Source: Oscillospiraceae bacterium
GTDB lineage: Bacteria; Bacillota; Clostridia; Oscillospirales; Ruminococcaceae
Assembly (NCBI GenBank): GCA_015067025.1
Contig: SVNC01000001.1
Span: forward strand, 124,001-188,000
Direction of reading: 5' to 3'
DNA length: 64,000 nt
A program made the position numbers and the translations under genes. The notes below the pieces were generated by a model that worked only from the letters and a program-made list of their open reading frames with translations, did not search any database and was not told where the DNA came from. Below are positions 3,910-37,578 of this stretch, piece by piece; the first letter of the stretch is position 1; every line of letters begins with the position of its first letter.

Positions 3910-5260
3910 ACTCCACGTCGGTAAATCTTGTAAACTGTCCGTCCCACATCATATTGATATCTCTTGTTTCACCGTGACGGTTTTTTGCAATGATACATTT
4001 GCAGGCACGCTGGTCTTCCTTGTCTTTTTCATAATAGCCGTCTCTGTATAAGAACAGTACGATATCTGCGTCCTGCTCGATAGAACCCGAGTCACGAAGG
4101 TCTGACAGCATAGGTGTTTTATCTTCCTTCTTTTCGGCTGAACGGGCGAGCTGTGAAAGGCAGATAACGGGGACGTTAAGCTCTTTTGCTAAGATCTTAA
4201 GATTTCTTGTGATTTCAGAAACCTCGTTTACTCGGTTCAGATCCTTTCTGCCTGAAGACATAAGCTGAAGGTAGTCGATTACCACGAGTCCTAAATTATC
4301 TATTCTTCTCAGCTTTGCCTTCATTTCGTTTACTGTACTTACAGAGCTGTCGTCTATATACATATTGAAATTTGACAGAATTGCCGCAGTATCCGCAAGA
4401 TTTTTCCACTGTGCACTTGTAAGTCTGCCTGTCTTCATTACTTCACTGGGCAGTCTGCCTTCGCTGGACAGCATTCTTGTAACCAGCTGTTCCTTCGACA
4501 TTTCGAGAGAGAAGGTACATACAGCCTTTTCGGGATGATATTTTGCCGTATTTGACGCAATATTCATTGCAAATGACGTCTTACCCATACCGGGGCGGGC
4601 AGCGATGATGATAAGGTCAGATTTATTAAGACCGTAGATGTACTTATCGAGAGTAGGAAAGCCTGATTTAAGACCTTTACCATTTTGTCTTTCCGGGTCA
4701 GCGGCAAGAGCTGAAAGATCATTCAGAATGTCTACGATAACACCGTTTATCTTTACAAGACCTCTCACCTGATTTTCGTTTCTTATCTCATATACTCGTC
4801 TTTCGGCAAGCTCTAAAAGATTAGAGGTGGAAGCACCGCTGTCCGCAGATTCGTTTAATATTTCTTCAGCTATTTCAATAAGCTGTCTTCTTGTGTACTT
4901 TTCTTCAATTATTTCGATATATCTGTCAATGCTTGAAATACTCGGAACTGATTCCATAAGCTTTACAAGATATACCTTACCTTCTTCGGGAGTGTCAAAG
5001 ACCGCCTTTTTTGTGCGTTCATCCTTTTTGTTGCAGGCTTCAAGCACCGTTACTATATCAATGGTTTCGCTTGCGGCGAACATCTGTGACATAACGGTGT
5101 AGATTTCACTATGTAATTTTATATAGAAATGCTCAGGGTGCAGCTTTGCTGACGCCTTGGGCATATTATTCTGACTATCCAGCAGAATTGCACCAAGCAC
5201 TGATTGTTCGGCGTCAAGATTGTAGGGCTTATTTATACCCGAAAGTTCAAGCTCTGCCAC
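3881..5260 (-). CDS. dnaB: Replicative DNA helicase DnaB
   Basis: Hexameric helicase that unwinds DNA at the replication fork. The N-terminal DnaB domain (NLDAEQSVLGAILLD) binds primase; a linker follows; the RecA-like motor carries the Walker A loop ARPGMGKTS at 221-229 and the Walker B region LVVIDYLQLM, then the family signature SQLARSAEKK and LSDLRDSGSIEQDAD. Its 459 residues match the family. It starts with GTG at 5260, eight nt after AAGGAAG. It follows rplI closely (20-nt gap), a widely conserved rplI-dnaB pairing, and overlaps tilS. Confidence 0.97.
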   Translation of the reverse strand: MAELELSGINKPYNLDAEQSVLGAILLDSQNNMPKASAKLHPEHFYIKLHSEIYTVMSQMFAASETIDIVTVLEACNKKDERTKKAVFDTPEEGKVYLVKLMESVPSISSIDRYIEIIEEKYTRRQLIEIAEEILNESADSGASTSNLLELAERRVYEIRNENQVRGLVKINGVIVDILNDLSALAADPERQNGKGLKSGFPTLDKYIYGLNKSDLIIIAARPGMGKTSFAMNIASNTAKYHPEKAVCTFSLEMSKEQLVTRMLSSEGRLPSEVMKTGRLTSAQWKNLADTAAILSNFNMYIDDSSVSTVNEMKAKLRRIDNLGLVVIDYLQLMSSGRKDLNRVNEVSEITRNLKILAKELNVPVICLSQLARSAEKKEDKTPMLSDLRDSGSIEQDADIVLFLYRDGYYEKDKEDQRACKCIIAKNRHGETRDINMMWDGQFTRFTDVEYVHKDERQS

Positions 5261-5280
5261 TTATGCCACTTCCTTTTTTA

Positions 5281-5727
5281 TTATTCTTCAACTACGTTTA
5301 CGTTAAATTTTGCAACGATACCTGTGAAAAGCTTAGCTTCTGCTTCAAAAGTACCAAAGGACTTGATATCTGTTCTTGTGCTTATCTTTCTCTTGTCAAC
5401 GTCAAAGCCGAATTCCTTTTTGATAAGAGCACTGATGTCCTTGCCTGTAACAGAGCCGAAGAGCTTTCCACCCTGACCTGCCTTGGCAGTGATCTTAAGA
5501 GTCTTACCGTCAATTGTATCCTTTATCTTCTGAGCGTGAGCAGCTTCAACGTCAAGCTTGTGCTGAGCAGAAGCCTTCTGTCCCTCAAGGTGGTTTAAGT
5601 TTTCATTTGTAGCTTCAACTGCAAGCTTTTTCTTTATAAGGCAGTTTCTTGCATAGCTGTCCTTAACTTCCTTTATTTCGCCTTTTTTACCTGTGCCGGC
5701 AATATCCTGTAATAAAATGATCTTCAT
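5281..5727 (-). CDS. rplI: 50S ribosomal protein L9
   Basis: Large-subunit protein that binds 23S rRNA near the L1 stalk base and helps keep reading frame. The 148 residues begin [18 protein letters not shown], the L9 signature, then a central charged helix (residues about 45-75) connecting to a C-terminal domain. ATG at 5727 is preceded by AAAGGAAG. It sits between gdpP and dnaB, as in Bacillus and many Clostridia. Confidence 0.97.
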
Positions 5728-5745
5728 AATAAATCTTCCTTTCTT

Positions 5746-7749
5746 TTATTTAGACGTATTTTCGCTTGAATTTACTTTTACTATATTGATGTAATAATCA
5801 TCAATAGCTGATTTAAGCTGTTCTTCAGCTTGCTTTATATTGTTCACCTTAAGCTGTGTACCTGCCATTGTCTGATGACCGCCGCCGCCTAAAGCCTCCA
5901 TAATGAGCTGAACGTTAAGTGCACCCATACTTCTTGCACTTATAGATACTTCGTTTGACATAGTCTTGTAAAGTACGAAGGATGCATCTACGTTGTTTAT
6001 TGTCAGCAGATCGTCTGCCGCCTGAGGAGCAGTTATTCTCATATCCTCTGCATAGAAATCGCAGGGAGCAATAGCACATTTGCGGTATATCTCAGCGTCT
6101 GCAACAATCTGTGTTTTTCTCTTGTAGCTGTCTATTGAGCTTGCAAAAAGCTTCTTTACCGTAACGGTATCAGCACCGAGTTTTCTTAAATAGGCGGCCG
6201 CTTCAAATGTGCGGGCACCTGTTTTCATAATAAAATTCTTTGTGTCAAGCATAATACCCGCCAGCAGACATTCTGCCTGTACGGCTCTCAGCTTTCCTGC
6301 CTCACCGAAATACTGGATAAGCTCTGTTACCATTTCTGAAGCAGAAGATGCATAAGGCTCGTGGTGGAATATTATAGCATTATCTATATGATTTACCATT
6401 CTTCTGTGATGGTCAATTACTACTACCTTTTCAGCCGCTTCGTGCAGTTCTTCACTTTCAATTATCTGAGGATTATGAGTATCACAGATTATAAGCAGTG
6501 ACTCTGACGTGATATCTTCAAGAGCCTTTGCAGGAGAGATGAATACAGGGTCTTCGTTTTCTGTTTCAGGGAACATATCAATAAGATTTCTTGCAAGCGA
6601 AGTTTCTACGTCGCATACCGCATAGGCTTCTTTGCCTAAATTTCTTATTGCACAGGTAAGACCTACCGATGAACCGACACTGTCAAGATCGCTGTGCTTG
6701 TGTCCCATTATGTAGACCTTATCAGAGCCTGCAACTAAGTCAAGCAGAGAGTTTGCAATAATTCTTGTTTTAACCTGAGTATGACGCTCAACGCCCTTAG
6801 AAACACCGCCGTAAAATTCAAAACCGCTTTCAGTCTTGATAGCCGCCTGGTCGCCACCACGTCCCAAAGCCATTTCAAGTGCCTGCTGTGCTAACTGTTC
6901 GCTTTCGCGGAGTGTCTTACCGGTTCTGCCGATTCCGATGGAAAGAGAAACTGTGATTCTGTCATCGATTGCTATTTCTCTTGCCTTGTCGAGTATTTCA
7001 AATTTGCTTTCAATAAGCTTTGCAATGTGTCTTTCTTCAAGTACTGCAATAAATCTGTTGGAAGAATTTTTTCTCAGTATACCTGAAGTCTGTGATACGA
7101 AGTCTTCGAGGAGCTTATCTATCTGTACGGATACGTGTGCCTTTTCACTTTCAAGTGCACCGCTTATAATTTCTTCATATCCGTCTACCATTATAAGAAC
7201 TACAACGGGGTGAGATAACTTTTTCTCAGTCTGCAGAGCCTTGAACTCCGTTATATTTCTGAAGAACAGAAGTGATAACTCGCCCTTTTCGTCTTCATCT
7301 ATCTTTCTTGCGTGCACGCTGTATATACTTGAATTGTAGCTTATCGTAATGCCGTCTTTTTTGAAAAATTCTTCTACCGAAATATCGGTTATCATACTCA
7401 AGGGATTGCCATATTCACAACTACCTCGGAATTCCTCGGAGAATTTCTCGTTGCACCATACGATGTTGCTCTTGGTATCTACAACTACCGCTGACATAGG
7501 AAAGGTCTGGACGCTTAAATGCTTTTTTGAGTCCAACTCTTCTTCTACTCTTGCATAATACTGAAAGGTCTTTCGAGTGACCTGAATAAGCTTGCCAATG
7601 GCAAATCCGCCGATAAGCACTATAAAGGGTGCAGACAGCCAGAATATTTTTACATTACAGGTGTAGGTGTACACAAGTAATGCGGCAAGGGATACAATGA
7701 GTGCGGTGATTGATATTACAAGACCGCCGTCACGGTAGAAGTTTTTCAA
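5746..7749 (-). CDS. gdpP: Cyclic-di-AMP phosphodiesterase GdpP
   Basis: Membrane phosphodiesterase that linearises c-di-AMP to pApA. Domains in order: two membrane helices (about 11-30 and 35-55), a PAS-like sensor (about 80-165), a degenerate GGDEF domain (about 175-315, with RGGD instead of an active GGDEF loop), and a DHH/DHHA1 hydrolase with GHKHSDLDS at 349-357, DHH at 446-448 and a C-terminal GGGGHQ. All expected metal ligands of the DHH domain appear present. Translation starts at TTG (7749), eight nt after AAGGAGG. It lies directly upstream of rplI. CdaA (15428-16333), the opposing cyclase, is in the same window. Confidence 0.95.
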   Translation of the reverse strand: MKNFYRDGGLVISITALIVSLAALLVYTYTCNVKIFWLSAPFIVLIGGFAIGKLIQVTRKTFQYYARVEEELDSKKHLSVQTFPMSAVVVDTKSNIVWCNEKFSEEFRGSCEYGNPLSMITDISVEEFFKKDGITISYNSSIYSVHARKIDEDEKGELSLLFFRNITEFKALQTEKKLSHPVVVLIMVDGYEEIISGALESEKAHVSVQIDKLLEDFVSQTSGILRKNSSNRFIAVLEERHIAKLIESKFEILDKAREIAIDDRITVSLSIGIGRTGKTLRESEQLAQQALEMALGRGGDQAAIKTESGFEFYGGVSKGVERHTQVKTRIIANSLLDLVAGSDKVYIMGHKHSDLDSVGSSVGLTCAIRNLGKEAYAVCDVETSLARNLIDMFPETENEDPVFISPAKALEDITSESLLIICDTHNPQIIESEELHEAAEKVVVIDHHRRMVNHIDNAIIFHHEPYASSASEMVTELIQYFGEAGKLRAVQAECLLAGIMLDTKNFIMKTGARTFEAAAYLRKLGADTVTVKKLFASSIDSYKRKTQIVADAEIYRKCAIAPCDFYAEDMRITAPQAADDLLTINNVDASFVLYKTMSNEVSISARSMGALNVQLIMEALGGGGHQTMAGTQLKVNNIKQAEEQLKSAIDDYYINIVKVNSSENTSK

Positions 7750-31665: not shown

Positions 31666-32760
31666 TTAAACGTTAAATCTGAAAAGAACAACGTCACCGT
31701 CACGCATAACGTATTCTTTACCTTCAAGTCTTACGAGACCTTTCTCTTTAGCTGCCGCCATACTACCGCAAGCCATAAGGTCATCAAAGGAAACGATTTC
31801 GGCTCTGATAAAGCCCTTTTCAAAGTCGGTGTGAATCTTTCCTGCCGCCTGAGGAGCTTTTGTGCCGTTTGTGATAGTCCACGCTCTTACTTCAGGAGCG
31901 CCTGCTGTAAGGTAGGAGATGAGTCCTAAAAGGCTGTAGCCCTGCTTTATTATACGGTTGAGACCTGATTCTGTGAGTCCTAAATCTGATAAGAACATCT
32001 CCTTATCTTCTGCATCCATATCTGAAATCTCAGCTTCGATCTGAGCACAGATAGGAAGTACAAGGCTGTTTTCTTCTTTAGCAATTTCACAAACTGCCTT
32101 ATACTGCTCGTTTGACTCAATGTCACCCTTGAAATCAGCTTCCGACATATTTGCCGCATAGATTACAGGCTTATTTGAAAGCAGGGGAGATGTTTTTATC
32201 ATTTCCGCTTCGCTTTCTGTAAAGTCAAAACCTCTTGCGGATTTACCTTCTTCAAGGTGACTGAGCAGTCTTTCGAGGAATTCAACCTCTGCCGCCATAC
32301 TCTTATCCCCCTTCATCTGCTTTTTTGCTCTGTCAATTCTTCTCTGCACGATTTCAATATCGGAGAATACAAGCTCTAAGTTTATAGTTTCAATATCTCT
32401 TGCCGCACCTATCTTGCCGTCAACGTGAATAATGTTGTCATCCTCAAAGCAACGTACGACGTGAACGATAGCGTCAACCTCACGGATATTGGATAAGAAC
32501 TTGTTGCCAAGTCCTTCACCCTTTGATGCACCCTTTACAAGACCTGCAATGTCCACAAATTCAAGAGTTGCAGGAGTGAACTTTTCGGGGTTGTACATCT
32601 TTGCAAGAGCGTCAAGACGCTCATCAGGGACTGATACTATACCGACGTTCGGCTCAATTGTGCAGAAGGGGTAGTTCGCAGATTCTGCACCTGCATTTGT
32701 AAGTGCGTTGAATAATGTACTTTTGCCTACGTTGGGTAAGCCTACCATGCCTAATTTCAT
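31666..32760 (-). CDS. ychF: Redox-regulated ATPase/GTPase YchF
   Basis: A 364-residue Obg-like P-loop NTPase that prefers ATP; linked to ribosomes and oxidative-stress responses. GLPNVGKST (about 7-15) is the P-loop, DIAGLVKGASKGEGLGNKF the switch II region, then a coiled-coil insertion (about 130-160) and a C-terminal TGS domain (YLTAGAPEVRAWTITNGTKAPQAAGKIHTDFEKGFIRAEIV). ATG 32760 follows AGGTGAT. Sequences beyond its 5' end hold a terminator and one of the direct repeats that bound the accessory segment. Confidence 0.96.
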   Translation of the reverse strand: MKLGMVGLPNVGKSTLFNALTNAGAESANYPFCTIEPNVGIVSVPDERLDALAKMYNPEKFTPATLEFVDIAGLVKGASKGEGLGNKFLSNIREVDAIVHVVRCFEDDNIIHVDGKIGAARDIETINLELVFSDIEIVQRRIDRAKKQMKGDKSMAAEVEFLERLLSHLEEGKSARGFDFTESEAEMIKTSPLLSNKPVIYAANMSEADFKGDIESNEQYKAVCEIAKEENSLVLPICAQIEAEISDMDAEDKEMFLSDLGLTESGLNRIIKQGYSLLGLISYLTAGAPEVRAWTITNGTKAPQAAGKIHTDFEKGFIRAEIVSFDDLMACGSMAAAKEKGLVRLEGKEYVMRDGDVVLFRFNV

Positions 32761-32777
32761 TTTTTATCACCTATTCC

Positions 32778-32804
32778 AAAAACCCTCTGTTTTCAAGGGT
32801 TTTT
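32778..32804. terminator. Terminator of the metallophosphoesterase gene
   Basis: Nine-bp perfect stem AAAAACCCT/AGGGTTTTT with a 9-nt loop. On the minus strand the stem ends in TTTTT and lies 60 nt past the stop of the 32868-35738 gene. It also lies just ahead of ychF. Confidence 0.75.
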
Positions 32805-32822
32805 CGCCTTTCTCATTTTTTT

Positions 32823-32842
32823 TACTACACAATTACTACACA
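32823..32842. repeat. Direct repeat bounding the accessory segment, left copy
   Basis: Two TACTACACA units in a row (20 nt). The same sequence with one extra T occurs at 35977-35997. The pair encloses 3.1 kb holding the repeat/metallophosphoesterase gene and a small reading frame. Confidence 0.7.
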
Positions 32843-32867
32843 TTTTATTATATAATATGGTGTAAAT

Positions 32868-35738
32868 TCAACCCTTTTTTTCAAGTTTGTTTCTTTCTTT
32901 TGGGCGAAGTACATCTTCATTCCATACCCGAATAACATTTTGACTCCATATGTACTGAACTGATTTCATAATTCTGGACGGTGCATACATTTCTGTTCCT
33001 AATACCCACCGTGGAACAGTTGCAATTTCTGTTCCTTTCTGCTTTGAATTATTCATAATGTGCGTACCTATTATCGGCAATGCTTGCTTATTATATTCGA
33101 GCATAAAATTTTCTGCCAAAGTCGGTTCTCGTGCTTCAAGAAGTAATTGCAGATTATCATACACCACTCTTGAACATATATCCAATGCCCAATATGGAGT
33201 TACCTTACCATCAAAAGGATTGATGTATATATGGCTGAACCAACTGACATCCACAATACAACCGTGAATTTTTCCGCTTCCTCCAAAACTTTTCACTTCT
33301 TTAGAAATGGCTTCTACAAATTGTTGATATGGCTTGATAGCATCACGAACAGCCTGTCCATATCTCGCCATATTATCATAATAATATTTTACATTAAATT
33401 CTTCAAGCGTTTTTCGTTGCCCACCACTTAACAAACACAAACTTCGCATTGAATCAAGTAAAAACATATACAACCCATCTCGTTTAAGCATATATATTTG
33501 CCCCTGATAATTACAACCTTTACTGCTAATTCCTCTTCCAATATTAAAATCTTTGTATTGTTCGGAATTTATCTTGTAAATACCATCCTGATAGTTTTCA
33601 AAGGGGTCATACCAGCCAAAGGAAGAAAACGCATTCAGTTTCCACTTTCGTGGTTTATATCCAATTTGATTGTCAGACAAAATTGCAGCACCATTTTCTT
33701 CAATCTCCATTTGGTTGTGATGTGTATGTCCATTCACATAAATCCAATTTGGATTACAAGGCTCATTTGTCCAATCAAATACAGGTGTATGTGTAAGTAC
33801 AATTACTTGTTTATTTCCTGCACATTGCTTCATTTTGTCATATATTTTGTAGAATCGTTTTGATAATTCTCTATCTGCTTCCAATGAAGCAACCGTAGAC
33901 CGATATAATCCCATTTCAGCGTTATACTGCGGATTCAGACCCGAAAACCCTACACCACCCAATATTATTGTTGATGCTTTCTCAAATAACTCCGACAGTT
34001 CCTCAATACTTGCATCAAGAATCTGATTTTCTCTGATTACTCTTTCGCCATTGAAGGACTTGTTTTTATATACAATATAAACATCATTTTCCAACATATA
34101 TGTTTGGGTTAGCCATTCGCTAATATGTCTCTCTCGGTCATTAACTCTCTCTCTGTATTCATTTACAATTTCATCAACACTTCTTACGCCATCAGTTGTA
34201 ACTGCACCTGCTTTTCCATCCCATAACTCGTGATTTCCAAGAATAAAAACAACATTGCCTTTCCAATGAGCTTTCAACAGTCTGTAAAACAATATAGTTA
34301 ATTCTTTACATCCAGCAACATCGCCACCTACGAGCAAAGTGGATTCATTGTCCTTGGCAGTAGAAATCATCTCTTGAATTTTTGAATCCAAAAATTCAAT
34401 AACCTCTGGTACAAGTATCTTATTTTCCTTAATGGCACATTCAACCACATTTTTGAGTTGATGCTCTAAATGAATATCTGTTACATAATAAAATGTTTTT
34501 GCTGAATTTTCTCCTGATGCCAAATCGTGAAATATTTTTACATTCTCCAAACAAGCTGGCAATGTTTCTACACTCTTTGTCTCCAACGGAACTAACAACT
34601 TTTCATTATCCAAATTCGATAATTCATACATTTTTCTACCGACAGGAGATAAATTTTGTCTTTCTTGTCTCCTCGCAATTTCTTCTTCGTACTTTGCCTT
34701 AATGTAGACTTCTATTTCTTTGTCTAAAGGTTCATTCTTTTCGTCTTTGCTATCAGCTACATTTTCTTCACGATTTTTTTCATTCCATTCCAACAACAAT
34801 GATGCTCCATTATCAAACTTACTTACTATCGCATCAATTATTCTTTTTTCATTACGCATATTATGAGGAATATCATCAAAAAACACCTTGTCTTCAGCTT
34901 TAAATACTCTATATGACACTTGAAAGCACTCTTCGCTTATTACTTTCAAGCACATATCAATCGTTTTGAATTCTTCTGGTATATATTTGAATGCCAAAAA
35001 GTTTCTTGCAAATACCGTTTCACAAATCTCAGCATCCAAAAACTCATATGGTATATATCTGATTGTCAAAGGCTCTCTTTCTAAACATTCAAGACACATA
35101 TCTCTTTTGATTCTGTTTTTCGTTATAAACTCTATGGCGAAAGGATTATTTGCAAGTGCTGCATCAATTATTTTCTTATTTACTATTCTCTTAGGTGCAT
35201 AGCAAAGTGCTGTTCCATCTTTTAATACCGCTTCAAGCACGAGTTCCTGATTCATATTTTTTTGTGGAATATCTCTCAAACTATGTGGTGAGTATTTAAC
35301 AGACTCAACTAATAAGCTGGCACTTATCTTTTTAGTTGGCACATATGCAATTGGATATTTTTCATAATTCAGTATTCCGCAATCATACCGCACTGCTTTT
35401 TTCGCCAAAGCAGATGTCCTCATTTTCTCAGGAACATATTCAAATGCTAAACCATTTCTGCTGATTGCCAAATCGCACAATTCGCTCGTCATCAAGGAAT
35501 TCGGCACATATCTAAGTGCCAAACCGTTTTCTTGAACAGCGATTCTGCATAGTTCTTCTGTAATCAACTTCTTTGATGCGTACTTCAGTGCATTTCCATC
35601 ATTTGATACAACAAATTTTACCAATTCATAAGTTTGTTGTGCTTTCGGCACTTGTTTCAATCTATGTCCTGTCGGTTCTCTATAAGCCATTTCGACAGGT
35701 GAGACTTCAACCAAATTCAGTTCTTGTTCCAACCTCAT
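32868..35738 (-). CDS. DUF4116-like repeat protein with metallophosphoesterase domain
   Basis: A 956-residue cytoplasmic protein. Residues about 35-310 hold roughly ten degenerate repeats of 22-25 residues of the form (N-G-x-A-L-x-Y-V-P-x-x-x-x-T-x-E-L-C-x-x-A-V), like DUF4116. A charged linker (320-365) leads to a calcineurin-like phosphoesterase with complete metal motifs: DIH at 421-423, GGD at 471-473, GNHE at 501-504, H650 and GHTH at 670-673. About 280 further residues follow that I cannot assign. No signal or membrane segment. GGGGTG lies six nt before ATG 35738. AT-rich codon use, lack of neighbours and bounding direct repeats suggest acquisition. Substrate (nucleic acid, nucleotide or protein) is unknown. 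Confidence 0.85.
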   Translation of the reverse strand: MRLEQELNLVEVSPVEMAYREPTGHRLKQVPKAQQTYELVKFVVSNDGNALKYASKKLITEELCRIAVQENGLALRYVPNSLMTSELCDLAISRNGLAFEYVPEKMRTSALAKKAVRYDCGILNYEKYPIAYVPTKKISASLLVESVKYSPHSLRDIPQKNMNQELVLEAVLKDGTALCYAPKRIVNKKIIDAALANNPFAIEFITKNRIKRDMCLECLEREPLTIRYIPYEFLDAEICETVFARNFLAFKYIPEEFKTIDMCLKVISEECFQVSYRVFKAEDKVFFDDIPHNMRNEKRIIDAIVSKFDNGASLLLEWNEKNREENVADSKDEKNEPLDKEIEVYIKAKYEEEIARRQERQNLSPVGRKMYELSNLDNEKLLVPLETKSVETLPACLENVKIFHDLASGENSAKTFYYVTDIHLEHQLKNVVECAIKENKILVPEVIEFLDSKIQEMISTAKDNESTLLVGGDVAGCKELTILFYRLLKAHWKGNVVFILGNHELWDGKAGAVTTDGVRSVDEIVNEYRERVNDRERHISEWLTQTYMLENDVYIVYKNKSFNGERVIRENQILDASIEELSELFEKASTIILGGVGFSGLNPQYNAEMGLYRSTVASLEADRELSKRFYKIYDKMKQCAGNKQVIVLTHTPVFDWTNEPCNPNWIYVNGHTHHNQMEIEENGAAILSDNQIGYKPRKWKLNAFSSFGWYDPFENYQDGIYKINSEQYKDFNIGRGISSKGCNYQGQIYMLKRDGLYMFLLDSMRSLCLLSGGQRKTLEEFNVKYYYDNMARYGQAVRDAIKPYQQFVEAISKEVKSFGGSGKIHGCIVDVSWFSHIYINPFDGKVTPYWALDICSRVVYDNLQLLLEAREPTLAENFMLEYNKQALPIIGTHIMNNSKQKGTEIATVPRWVLGTEMYAPSRIMKSVQYIWSQNVIRVWNEDVLRPKERNKLEKKG

Positions 35739-35763
35739 ACATTACACCCCTTGCTTTTGGGTT

Positions 35764-35937
35764 TTAACGAGCATAAACTCTATATTTATTATATCTTATA
35801 TAGGTATCGTTATCAATAAGAGCAACACGACTTTGTATGAATAAACAAAAGTCAACAGGATGTTGCATTGATTTTTGTAGATACTGTAATTCTCCCAATA
35901 AAAAATCTCGGTAATGCCGAGATTTTTCTAACATCAT
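35764..35937 (-). CDS. Hypothetical small protein ahead of the metallophosphoesterase gene
   Basis: A possible 57-residue protein (MMLEKSRHYRDFLLGELQYLQK...) ending 25 nt before the phosphoesterase start. It is helical and charged at the N-terminus and basic at the end. AGGAG lies 18 nt upstream of the ATG, too far for a normal site, and the frame can be extended with TTG to 36009 through the direct repeat (giving CVVNCVV). I cannot tell whether it is expressed or a gene remnant. Confidence 0.3.
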   Translation of the reverse strand: MMLEKSRHYRDFLLGELQYLQKSMQHPVDFCLFIQSRVALIDNDTYIRYNKYRVYAR

Positions 35938-35976
35938 ATCTTTTTTTGTATCAGACTCCTTTATTTCAGATGCTTC

Positions 35977-35997
35977 TACTACACAATTTACTACACA
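35977..35997. repeat. Direct repeat bounding the accessory segment, right copy
   Basis: Two TACTACACA units separated by one more T than in the left copy (32823-32842); a third partial unit, ACTACACA, follows at 36001-36008. These short directly repeated units fit an attachment site or insertion footprint. The following stretch to 36247 shows no gene or clear structure. Confidence 0.65.
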
Positions 35998-36247
35998 ACC
36001 ACTACACAAAATAGCTGTTTTTTTATATAAAGTTGCATAGAGCTATATGAAGCAGAAACTCCAAAAAACCTTTATTTTATCAGGGTTAGCGAGGTTTTAA
36101 GGAGATATGCAAAAATATATGAAAATGGTACTGAAATTACGATTCCAAGCCTCATAATTTATATTATCCTTTCAGAAAATTTAAAATAAGTCCAAATAAG
36201 TATAGCATTATTTCAGGAATTTTTCAAGAGCTTATGTTACAAATTTG

Positions 36248-36308: not shown

Positions 36309-37046
36309 ATGCCCGATATTTATAAGCACGGTTATGATAATTTCAAGAAGATGTCGGTTCTTTTTGTTCTACAGATAATTCTTGGAATATTACCGGTTAT
36401 ACTCCTTCTTATATATATAGGCTTTGATTTATTCCAGTATCCTGTTATCGGATATGTGTTTATAGCGATAATACTTGCAGGTGCTATCACAAATATCACG
36501 GTAGCAAAAAGATATAACGTACTCCTGTCAGGCTTCAGGGGTGAAAAATCCCTTATGAAGACTGTCAAGAAATTAGGCAGCGAGTATATGGTGTTTTCAA
36601 ATATCCCTGTAAGATATAAGAAAAACCGTTCAGAGATAGACCTGCTTATAATAAGTCCCACCTACGTACTTATTATAGAAGTAAAAAATCATTCAGGATA
36701 TATCAGCGGAAAGCACAAGGATGAAAAATGGATCCAACGTAAGGTATACAAGGACGGCAAGACAACCGAAACAGAAATGCAAAATCCTCTTAAACAGCTC
36801 CGCCGTCAGCGTGATATAATAAAGAGCATACTTCAGTCAAACGATCTTGACCAGTGGATAGAAACGGTACTTTATTTTTCTTCAAACTCAGTTCATCTCT
36901 ATCTTGATCTTTTTGACAGTGACAATGTCTGCTCCAGTGAAAAGGAGCTTTTGGAATTTTTACGTACCTACAAGCCGCCTAAAAAGGCAGACCCTGAAAA
37001 GTTGGAAAAAATAAAGCAATTATTCAAGGAAATGTGTCAGAATTAA
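36309..37046 (+). CDS. Membrane-anchored NERD-domain protein
   Basis: A 245-residue protein with two N-terminal membrane helices (about 14-38 and 44-65) and a cytoplasmic NERD (nuclease-related) domain. NRSEIDLLIISPTYVLIIEVKNHSGYISG shows the Asp and Glu-x-Lys residues of the PD-(D/E)xK-like core. The C-terminus is Lys/Pro-rich. NERD proteins are inferred nucleases or DNA-processing factors; activity is not proven for most. AGGAGG precedes ATG 36309. It stands alone between the accessory segment and a non-coding module, which raises the possibility of a defence-type role (inference). Confidence 0.82.
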   Translation: MPDIYKHGYDNFKKMSVLFVLQIILGILPVILLLIYIGFDLFQYPVIGYVFIAIILAGAITNITVAKRYNVLLSGFRGEKSLMKTVKKLGSEYMVFSNIPVRYKKNRSEIDLLIISPTYVLIIEVKNHSGYISGKHKDEKWIQRKVYKDGKTTETEMQNPLKQLRRQRDIIKSILQSNDLDQWIETVLYFSSNSVHLYLDLFDSDNVCSSEKELLEFLRTYKPPKKADPEKLEKIKQLFKEMCQN

Positions 37047-37201: not shown

Positions 37202-37203
37202 AA

Positions 37204-37331
37204 AACCATCGTAAGACAGATAAGTTTTACGATGGTTTAGTTTTTTAGTTGTCTCCTTTCTTTTGTTCTACACATTATACATTATTTGATTTCAGAGCGT
37301 GAGTACACGCTCAATTTTTTTGCCCTGATTT
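37204..37331 (+). repeat. 128-nt direct repeat, copy 1 (hairpin plus terminator)
   Basis: Identical to 37451-37578 over 128 nt. It contains a 12-bp hairpin (AAACCATCGTAA at 37203-37214 with 37227-37238) and an intrinsic terminator (GAGCGTG-AGTA-CACGCTC at 37295-37312, then AATTTTTTT). Confidence 0.9.
37208..37321 (+). ncRNA. Candidate small RNA of about 113 nt
   Basis: A perfect promoter (37173-37201) is followed about 7 nt later by this stretch, which begins in a hairpin and ends at an intrinsic terminator. It has pyrimidine-rich single-stranded middle sequence (GTCTCCTTTCTTTTG) that could pair with AAAGGAG-type ribosome binding sites. No protein is visible. This may be a small RNA; it could also be the terminator region of an untranslated transcript. 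Confidence 0.5.
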
Positions 37332-37345
37332 ATCTAACGATGGCT

Positions 37346-37414: not shown

Positions 37415-37450
37415 AAATCTGTCATAGACTTGCGTCCATGACAGATTAAA

Positions 37451-37578
37451 AACCATCGTAAGACAGATAAGTTTTACGATGGTTTAGTTTTTTAGTTGTC
37501 TCCTTTCTTTTGTTCTACACATTATACATTATTTGATTTCAGAGCGTGAGTACACGCTCAATTTTTTTGCCCTGATTT
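37451..37578 (+). repeat. 128-nt direct repeat, copy 2 (no promoter)
   Basis: Exact copy of 37204-37331, offset by 247 nt, including the hairpin and the terminator (37542-37559 then T-run). The perfect promoter of copy 1 is not duplicated. From 37579 to 37669 there is a TATAAT (37622-37627) with only a weak -35, possibly the promoter of the M16 genes. Confidence 0.9.

Follow-up and report, generated by a model that had tools for sequence, protein, structure and literature searches.

How did a large phosphoesterase gene come to lie directly upstream of ychF in an Oscillospiraceae genome, and what might its product do? The question is raised by a stretch of 64,000 nucleotides (the window; contig SVNC01000001.1, positions 124,001 to 188,000), in which one gene encoding 956 residues lies between ychF and a NERD gene. 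An original prediction, made from the window's sequence, had taken this gene for cargo acquired on a segment bounded by short direct repeats. Our analysis indicates that site-specific recombination apparently placed 3.4 kb of foreign DNA, with this single large gene, within the opening codons of ychF. That a site-specific element integrated here is very probable; the role of its cargo is much less so.

Apparent insertion into the first codons of ychF

At a threshold of E below 1e-40, 61 of 71 genomes of the genus have a ychF orthologue, the remaining 10 giving weaker, Obg-like matches only. The 30 best ychF matches were taken as loci, of which 29 belong to relatives, the window's own being excluded. 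The three nearest relatives (G033, G023, and G025), with ychF 97 to 99% identical, hold an empty site: the DNA alignment breaks off at the ychF start and resumes on the NERD side. The NERD gene is a resident neighbor, adjoining ychF at 15 of the 29 relatives' loci (7 at 64 to 89% identity, 8 at 44 to 48%). Together with the presence of the cargo protein in only 3 of the 71 genomes, the empty sites bear out the proposal that the gene was acquired.

In the nearest empty sites, AATTTATATTATCCTTTC or a near match precedes the ychF start. In the window, a AATTTATATTATCCTTTC-type sequence and an orphan start codon (27 codons, MRLGIV...) are found on the NERD side of the insert, followed upstream by a promoter motif, TTGAAA-17-TATACT. 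Of the 29 relatives, the 9 nearest have this motif ahead of ychF, and the other 20 give no match to the pattern. As the promoter scan gave 16 sites versus 17.1 in shuffled sequences, i.e., no excess overall, the case for this promoter is its conservation. In the window, the 5' end of ychF is thus supplied by the element. The orphaned ychF promoter would read into the cargo gene, and ychF itself would be transcribed from the leader of the element, by read-through, or both.

Ends, repeats, and composition of the element

The insert spans 3,395 bp core to core (32743-36146) and is bounded by TACNATNCC, which corresponds to ychF codons 4 to 6. The direct repeats that had been proposed as its boundaries are real, with 91% identity between 32821-32842 and 35987-36008, but the actual ends of the element lie outside them, and the repeats are element-borne, inside both ends. 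An empty site with a single repeat had also been anticipated; none of the 29 relatives' ychF loci holds any TACTACACA unit. In the window, TACTACACA occurs 4 times, with a mean of 0.49 in shuffled sequences and 4 occurrences reached in 1 of 100 shuffles. The doubled pattern was found in 1 of the 71 genomes, the window's own, solely at the insert (3 matches forward, 0 reverse); read backwards as a control, it gave 0 matches in this genome and one in G029. A degenerate third unit, CACTACACA, terminates at 36008.

The composition of the element also sets it apart. The third-codon-position GC content (GC3) of the cargo gene is 28% versus 38 to 44% in eight genes nearby, in keeping with the AT-rich codon use noted earlier. 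The element as a whole has 34.3% GC versus 40.5% for the window, and 20 of 607 overlapping windows of equal size are equally low. Its coding strand holds the cargo open reading frame (ORF) and an 81-amino-acid (aa) ORF alone.

Related elements and the missing integrase

The leader of the window's ychF resembles ychF-adjacent sequence in four genomes (G071 to G074), where paired TACTACACA repeats are present too. All four belong to the Lachnospiraceae, with Roseburia and Butyribacter among them. In three of the four an integrase adjoins the repeats, namely, that of R. hominis and two others at 86% and 89% identity to it; the fourth, G071, holds integrase fragments only, from a decaying element at the same ychF site. 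The R. hominis element (Roseburia, An869), the only one of the four whose right end was found, encodes a tyrosine integrase; 8.6 kb separate its two cores, and at either end the repeats lie on the inner side. The window element shares the target codons, the leader, and the paired repeats with all of these, and a core at both ends with that of R. hominis. It differs from them in that no integrase is encoded beside its attachment site attL, and from the R. hominis element in being 3.4 kb instead of 8.6 kb long.

A tyrosine integrase would have inserted the 3.4-kb element at the core in ychF codons 4 to 6, since one is encoded beside ychF by Lachnospiraceae elements that agree with it in target, leader, and repeats. 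We infer that the TACTACACA repeats are arm sites bound by this integrase. Scans for the repeat pattern gave 30 viral loci and, out of at least 117 genome stretches, 80 genome loci, which brought the number listed to 110. A related integrase is encoded at 13 of these 110, at most 200 nucleotides (nt) from a repeat in 10 of the 13, and ychF is present at 4. The other 97 listed loci have no related integrase, as expected of a short pattern.

The idea that the shared leader is the native ychF upstream sequence of Lachnospiraceae was dropped, as the sole repeat-free ychF locus obtained (L247) is without the leader; under an overly strict threshold, a search for further loci of this kind gave a match in 1 of 291 genomes. 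Two further observations were made at these sites. At the right end of the R. hominis element, an attL-like leader recurs in the flanking host DNA (L194, 10564-10670), perhaps the trace of an older element at this site. In Butyribacter (L195, 2333-18703), genes that by eye resemble type I restriction-modification and another recombinase lie beside the ychF-site integrase.

As described in part of the account in PMC5704250, a cis-mobilizable element (CIME) keeps attL and attR and is devoid of integration and transfer genes. The window element fits this definition: both cores are kept with repeats inside both, it has no integration gene, and no transfer genes were found in its ORF list or by Pfam. 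It differs from CIMEs in carrying a single cargo gene in 3.4 kb and in its position, within the 5' codons of a protein-coding gene whose start it replaces; the comparison leaves aside any origin from a conjugative element. Because both att sites are kept but the integrase is absent, the element is either a cis-mobilizable-type remnant or a cassette needing an integrase in trans.

Passages of PMC8637289, PMC10383233, and PMC6375853 describe a pneumococcal prophage that integrates beside ychF and alters the ychF promoter region. As presented there, this prophage and satellite prophages upstream of ychF likewise swap part of the ychF promoter, but they use an intergenic attB of different sequence (14 to 26 bp) and, unlike the window element, have an integrase. 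Literature searches did not turn up this ychF-codon site in print, their matches being pneumococcal apart from a Ralstonia paper. With its empty sites and orphaned promoter, the locus is a resolved case in which an integrative cassette with a single gene occupies the 5' codons of a conserved gene, and the TACNATNCC core with paired TACTACACA repeats at ychF is a short signature that can be searched for further cargo.

Architecture of the cargo protein

The predicted 956-residue ORF was confirmed, and its product has three parts (Table 1). Pfam assigned DUF4116 to the N-terminal part (E 7.3e-29, in 4 stretches) and Metallophos to the middle part (PF00149; E 2.4e-7, 31.8 bits versus a cut-off of 21.5). 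The about ten short repeats described earlier correspond to some nine to ten helix-pair units in a full-length AlphaFold model, whose mean predicted confidence (pLDDT) is 53, with a poor C-terminal part. The model agrees with the alpha-solenoid proposed for DUF4116 in the part of PMC8078820 that deals with it. The N-terminal part varies among homologues: L208 has pentapeptide repeats, and L209 and L220 have no Pfam family before the phosphoesterase.

The metal motifs of a calcineurin-type phosphoesterase, as had been read from the sequence, are all present (D421/H423, D473, GNHE 501-504, H650, and G670-H671-x-H673), and homologues that extend over these positions retain them. The cargo has the metal ligands and the predicted fold of the calcineurin-like metallophosphoesterases (PF00149), a family that includes Mre11/SbcD and PptH; it differs from them by its DUF4116 and C-terminal domains and by giving no match to the SbcD family model up to E 1. 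One homologue, L222, matches SbcD below the cut-off (18 of 77.65 bits). Foldseek searches with the full-length model returned low-scoring matches only, mostly helical repeat proteins. A second model, of residues 406 to 956 (pLDDT 65.5), had no match in the PDB below E 0.001; against viral models it had two below 0.001, one of them named calcineurin-like phosphoesterase. VIA-align matched the phosphoesterase part and barely covered the C-terminal domain.

No Pfam family was found above the cut-off for the C-terminal domain in scans of the cargo or its homologues, and its profile gave a weak match to PARP-1 (E 0.014). On Limosilactobacillus reuteri plasmids, this domain (blastp E 1e-20) follows a different N-terminal domain, not a phosphoesterase. 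The latter has the motif GDxD-WDxKV-QxxxY, with D172, D181, K183, Q197, and Y201 invariant in 7 sequences, from which we read it as a probable PD-(D/E)XK nuclease. It also matches 26 further plasmid records, and in the six opened it is a stand-alone gene. An uncharacterized C-terminal domain is seen to pair with two different enzyme-like domains, often near defense genes, and its activity is directly testable. As a separate observation, the stand-alone genes (L237 to L242) form a family of about 250 to 275 aa with a PD-(D/E)XK-like motif, annotated as 'hypothetical protein' on plasmid records.

Homologues and their neighbors

The three genus genomes with the cargo protein are its own and two with divergent homologues (36 to 40% identity). 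Matches were found in 6 of 396 genomes of the family, in 7 of 391 of the class, whether the query was the whole protein or the C-terminal domain, and in 2 of 289 of the phylum, both already retrieved. These counts include the window's own genome, the samples overlap, and one family match (G169) is interrupted by stops. Among viral contigs, alignment A2 retrieved 5 loci, one of them coinciding in sequence with the genome locus L219; A1 retrieved none, and A4, A6, and A7 retrieved A2's contigs again. Ten plasmid records matched, eight through the N-terminal repeats and two, from L. reuteri, through the C-terminal domain. Phage records gave no match to the window protein or to homologue L226, and a single-protein search of genome contigs gave no close relative in named genomes. 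This scattered distribution, as judged from sequence matches, fits horizontal spread.

At 17 loci, the neighbors listed were 121 ORFs of at least 150 aa, none more than 8 kb from the gene. Defense-type neighbors occur at at least 5 of the 17, a lower bound and not a rate: Cas9 at L040; an annotated DNA methyltransferase at L198; by PADLOC, a type IIG restriction enzyme at L207; and, also by PADLOC, PDC-S39 at L206 and PDC-S42 and PDC-S50 at L219, which are candidate families and not proven systems. L199, a related plasmid copy of L198, has an annotated Eco57I-type methylase. A type III methyltransferase gave one match among the scanned neighbors, where the best 25 of 71 families were listed and not assigned by protein. 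At an equal threshold, two to four of 49 window ORFs, used as a control, matched PADLOC (member 1 with IetA/TRIP13, and one member each with DndA, SspA, and PglW, possibly shared); by name, these are relatives of proteins of the housekeeping type. The neighborhood lends support by association and is not an enrichment test.

Genes of mobile elements were also seen: a tyrosine integrase beside the homologue at L041 and, by eye, a relaxase-like gene and a serine recombinase near L208 and phage structural genes at L225 and L226. The cargo family is rare and uncharacterized and is often found in mobile elements or near phage-defense genes. At L206, a 713-aa DUF4379 treble-clef repeat protein (4400-6541) lies between the phosphoesterase homologue and the PDC-S39 candidate; a short protein that by eye is similar to it follows the homologue at L220.

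Function and alternative explanations

The cargo may be a metal-dependent nuclease effector, in which the phosphoesterase domain would cut and the solenoid and C-terminal domain would bind or sense. A nuclease effector is favored because a nuclease-like domain substitutes for the phosphoesterase in L. reuteri and because of the genomic context. We give the phosphoesterase domain an even chance of acting as a nuclease, and a role of the cargo in defense or conflict slightly less than that; equally tentative is the fuller proposal of a mobile single-gene nuclease effector, acting in conflict between elements or against phage. In PMC12287305, a phage phosphoesterase, mycobacteriophage Gp48, is reported to disrupt host DNA. 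Like the cargo, Gp48 is a metallophosphoesterase of a mobile element; it is a phage counter-defense protein, however, and is likened here by its description in that source, not by sequence. Of the earlier suggestion of a nuclease or nucleotide hydrolase in conflict with other elements, a conflict-related nuclease stays plausible by context and domain swapping. The claim that the function is not deducible holds in part, since the replacement of one domain by a probable PD-(D/E)XK nuclease points the way but proves nothing.

Several results weigh against this account. A PDB profile search and an hhalign comparison gave the PD-(D/E)XK reading no support, and the one Cas4 match was below the cut-off. 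The fold matches fail to separate nucleases from phosphatases, VIA-align scores being alike for PptH, Mre11/SbcD, purple acid phosphatases, and nucleotidases. PADLOC-DB 2.0.0 returned 0 families for the cargo and two homologues up to E 1; the PADLOC scan of neighbors was partial, covering 76 of the 121 ORFs (10 chosen by hand and 66 more). At L209, L217, L218, L220, L221, and L222, no defense gene was seen by eye, and the partial scans place none there. No integrase of the R. hominis family was found in the window's own genome (best matches 36% and 30%, over parts only), nor any relic of it in the insert (best tblastn match to the R. hominis integrase at E 8.7), so that the enzyme for the window element is deduced from other species. 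With these points counted, we still hold the explanation as a whole to be likely.

The strongest alternative, though an unlikely one, is that the cargo acts not as a nuclease but as a small-molecule phosphatase or phosphodiesterase (on a nucleotide, cyclic nucleotide, or metabolite), possibly serving counter-defense against nucleotide signaling. Against it stands the domain replacement beside the same C-terminal domain in L. reuteri, and the solenoid and C-terminal parts seem oversized for such an enzyme. A little less probable still, the island could be the dead remnant of a larger element with the cargo as a neutral passenger. The absence of integrase and transfer genes and the decay of the G071 element at the same site would suit a remnant; the 956-codon frame, however, is open, the metal ligands are kept, and both att sites are still recognizable. 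A transposon-like insertion with the TACTACACA repeats as target duplication was rejected as scarcely credible, for the near-identical direct repeats, some 3.1 kb apart, are internal and missing from the empty sites, and both the junction and the orphaned 5' end of ychF are located beyond them. An ancestral gene at ychF that was lost in the relatives is just as improbable, since the orphaned second ychF 5' end requires an insertion and the homologues in two other genomes of the genus, which might have suggested ancestry, are divergent and lie on contigs other than ychF's.

The cargo might belong to a modular single-gene defense family, a broader proposal that we regard as speculative. Here the C-terminal domain would be a new recognition or trigger module, the cutter would be interchangeable (calcineurin-type or PD-(D/E)XK), and the N-terminal scaffold would be variable (DUF4116, pentapeptide, or none recognized). 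At this locus it would travel in a cassette free of any integrase, which inserts where a conserved gene begins, diverts that gene's promoter to the cargo, and makes the host gene rely on the cassette leader.

Features of the locus

Table 1. Features of the element and its surroundings, in window coordinates
Feature	Position	Strand	Basis or remark
ychF, target gene, 5' end rebuilt	31666..32760	-	Pfam YchF-GTPase_C and MMR_HSR1; genus orthologues
Left core TACCATGCC (attL)	32743..32751	.	ychF codons 4-6
Element-borne ychF first codons and leader	32752..32820	-	Unlike genus; resembles ychF-adjacent sequence of four Lachnospiraceae genomes
Left pair of TACTACACA units	32821..32842	+	Putative integrase arm sites
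Cargo gene, 956 aa, DUF4116 / metallophosphoesterase / C-terminal domain	32868..35738	-	ORF, Pfam
Conserved C-terminal domain without Pfam family, residues 697-950	32889..33650	-	15 invariant columns in 15 sequences
Calcineurin-like phosphoesterase domain, residues 416-674	33717..34493	-	
DUF4116 helical repeats, residues 24-266	34941..35669	-	Pfam, AlphaFold model
81-aa ORF, unsupported as gene	35764..36009	-	Family searches without notable match
Promoter-like site upstream of cargo gene	35788..35816	-	11/12 consensus match only; scan total not above shuffles
Right TACTACACA units, two exact and one degenerate	35977..36008	+	Putative integrase arm sites
Right core TACGATTCC (attR)	36138..36146	.	
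Orphaned ancestral ychF start codon (36155), ribosome site, and promoter TTGAAA-17-TATACT (36227-36199)	36153..36227	-	Reads into insert
NERD gene, resident neighbor outside element	36309..37046	+	Pfam; adjoins ychF in relatives

An intergenic unit beyond the NERD gene

On the far side of the NERD gene, an intergenic unit is present in two nearly identical copies (37202-37335 and 37449-37578, minus strand). The unit had no match in Rfam at the gathering score (best sub-threshold E 0.23). It is present in 18 of 21 genomes of the genus searched, at one place per relative and as two full copies in the window. It forms predicted hairpins (fold z -3.4), and a 35-nt core does not vary among the 13 copies aligned, of which the window supplies two and relatives 11. 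The unit is a candidate small RNA or leader.

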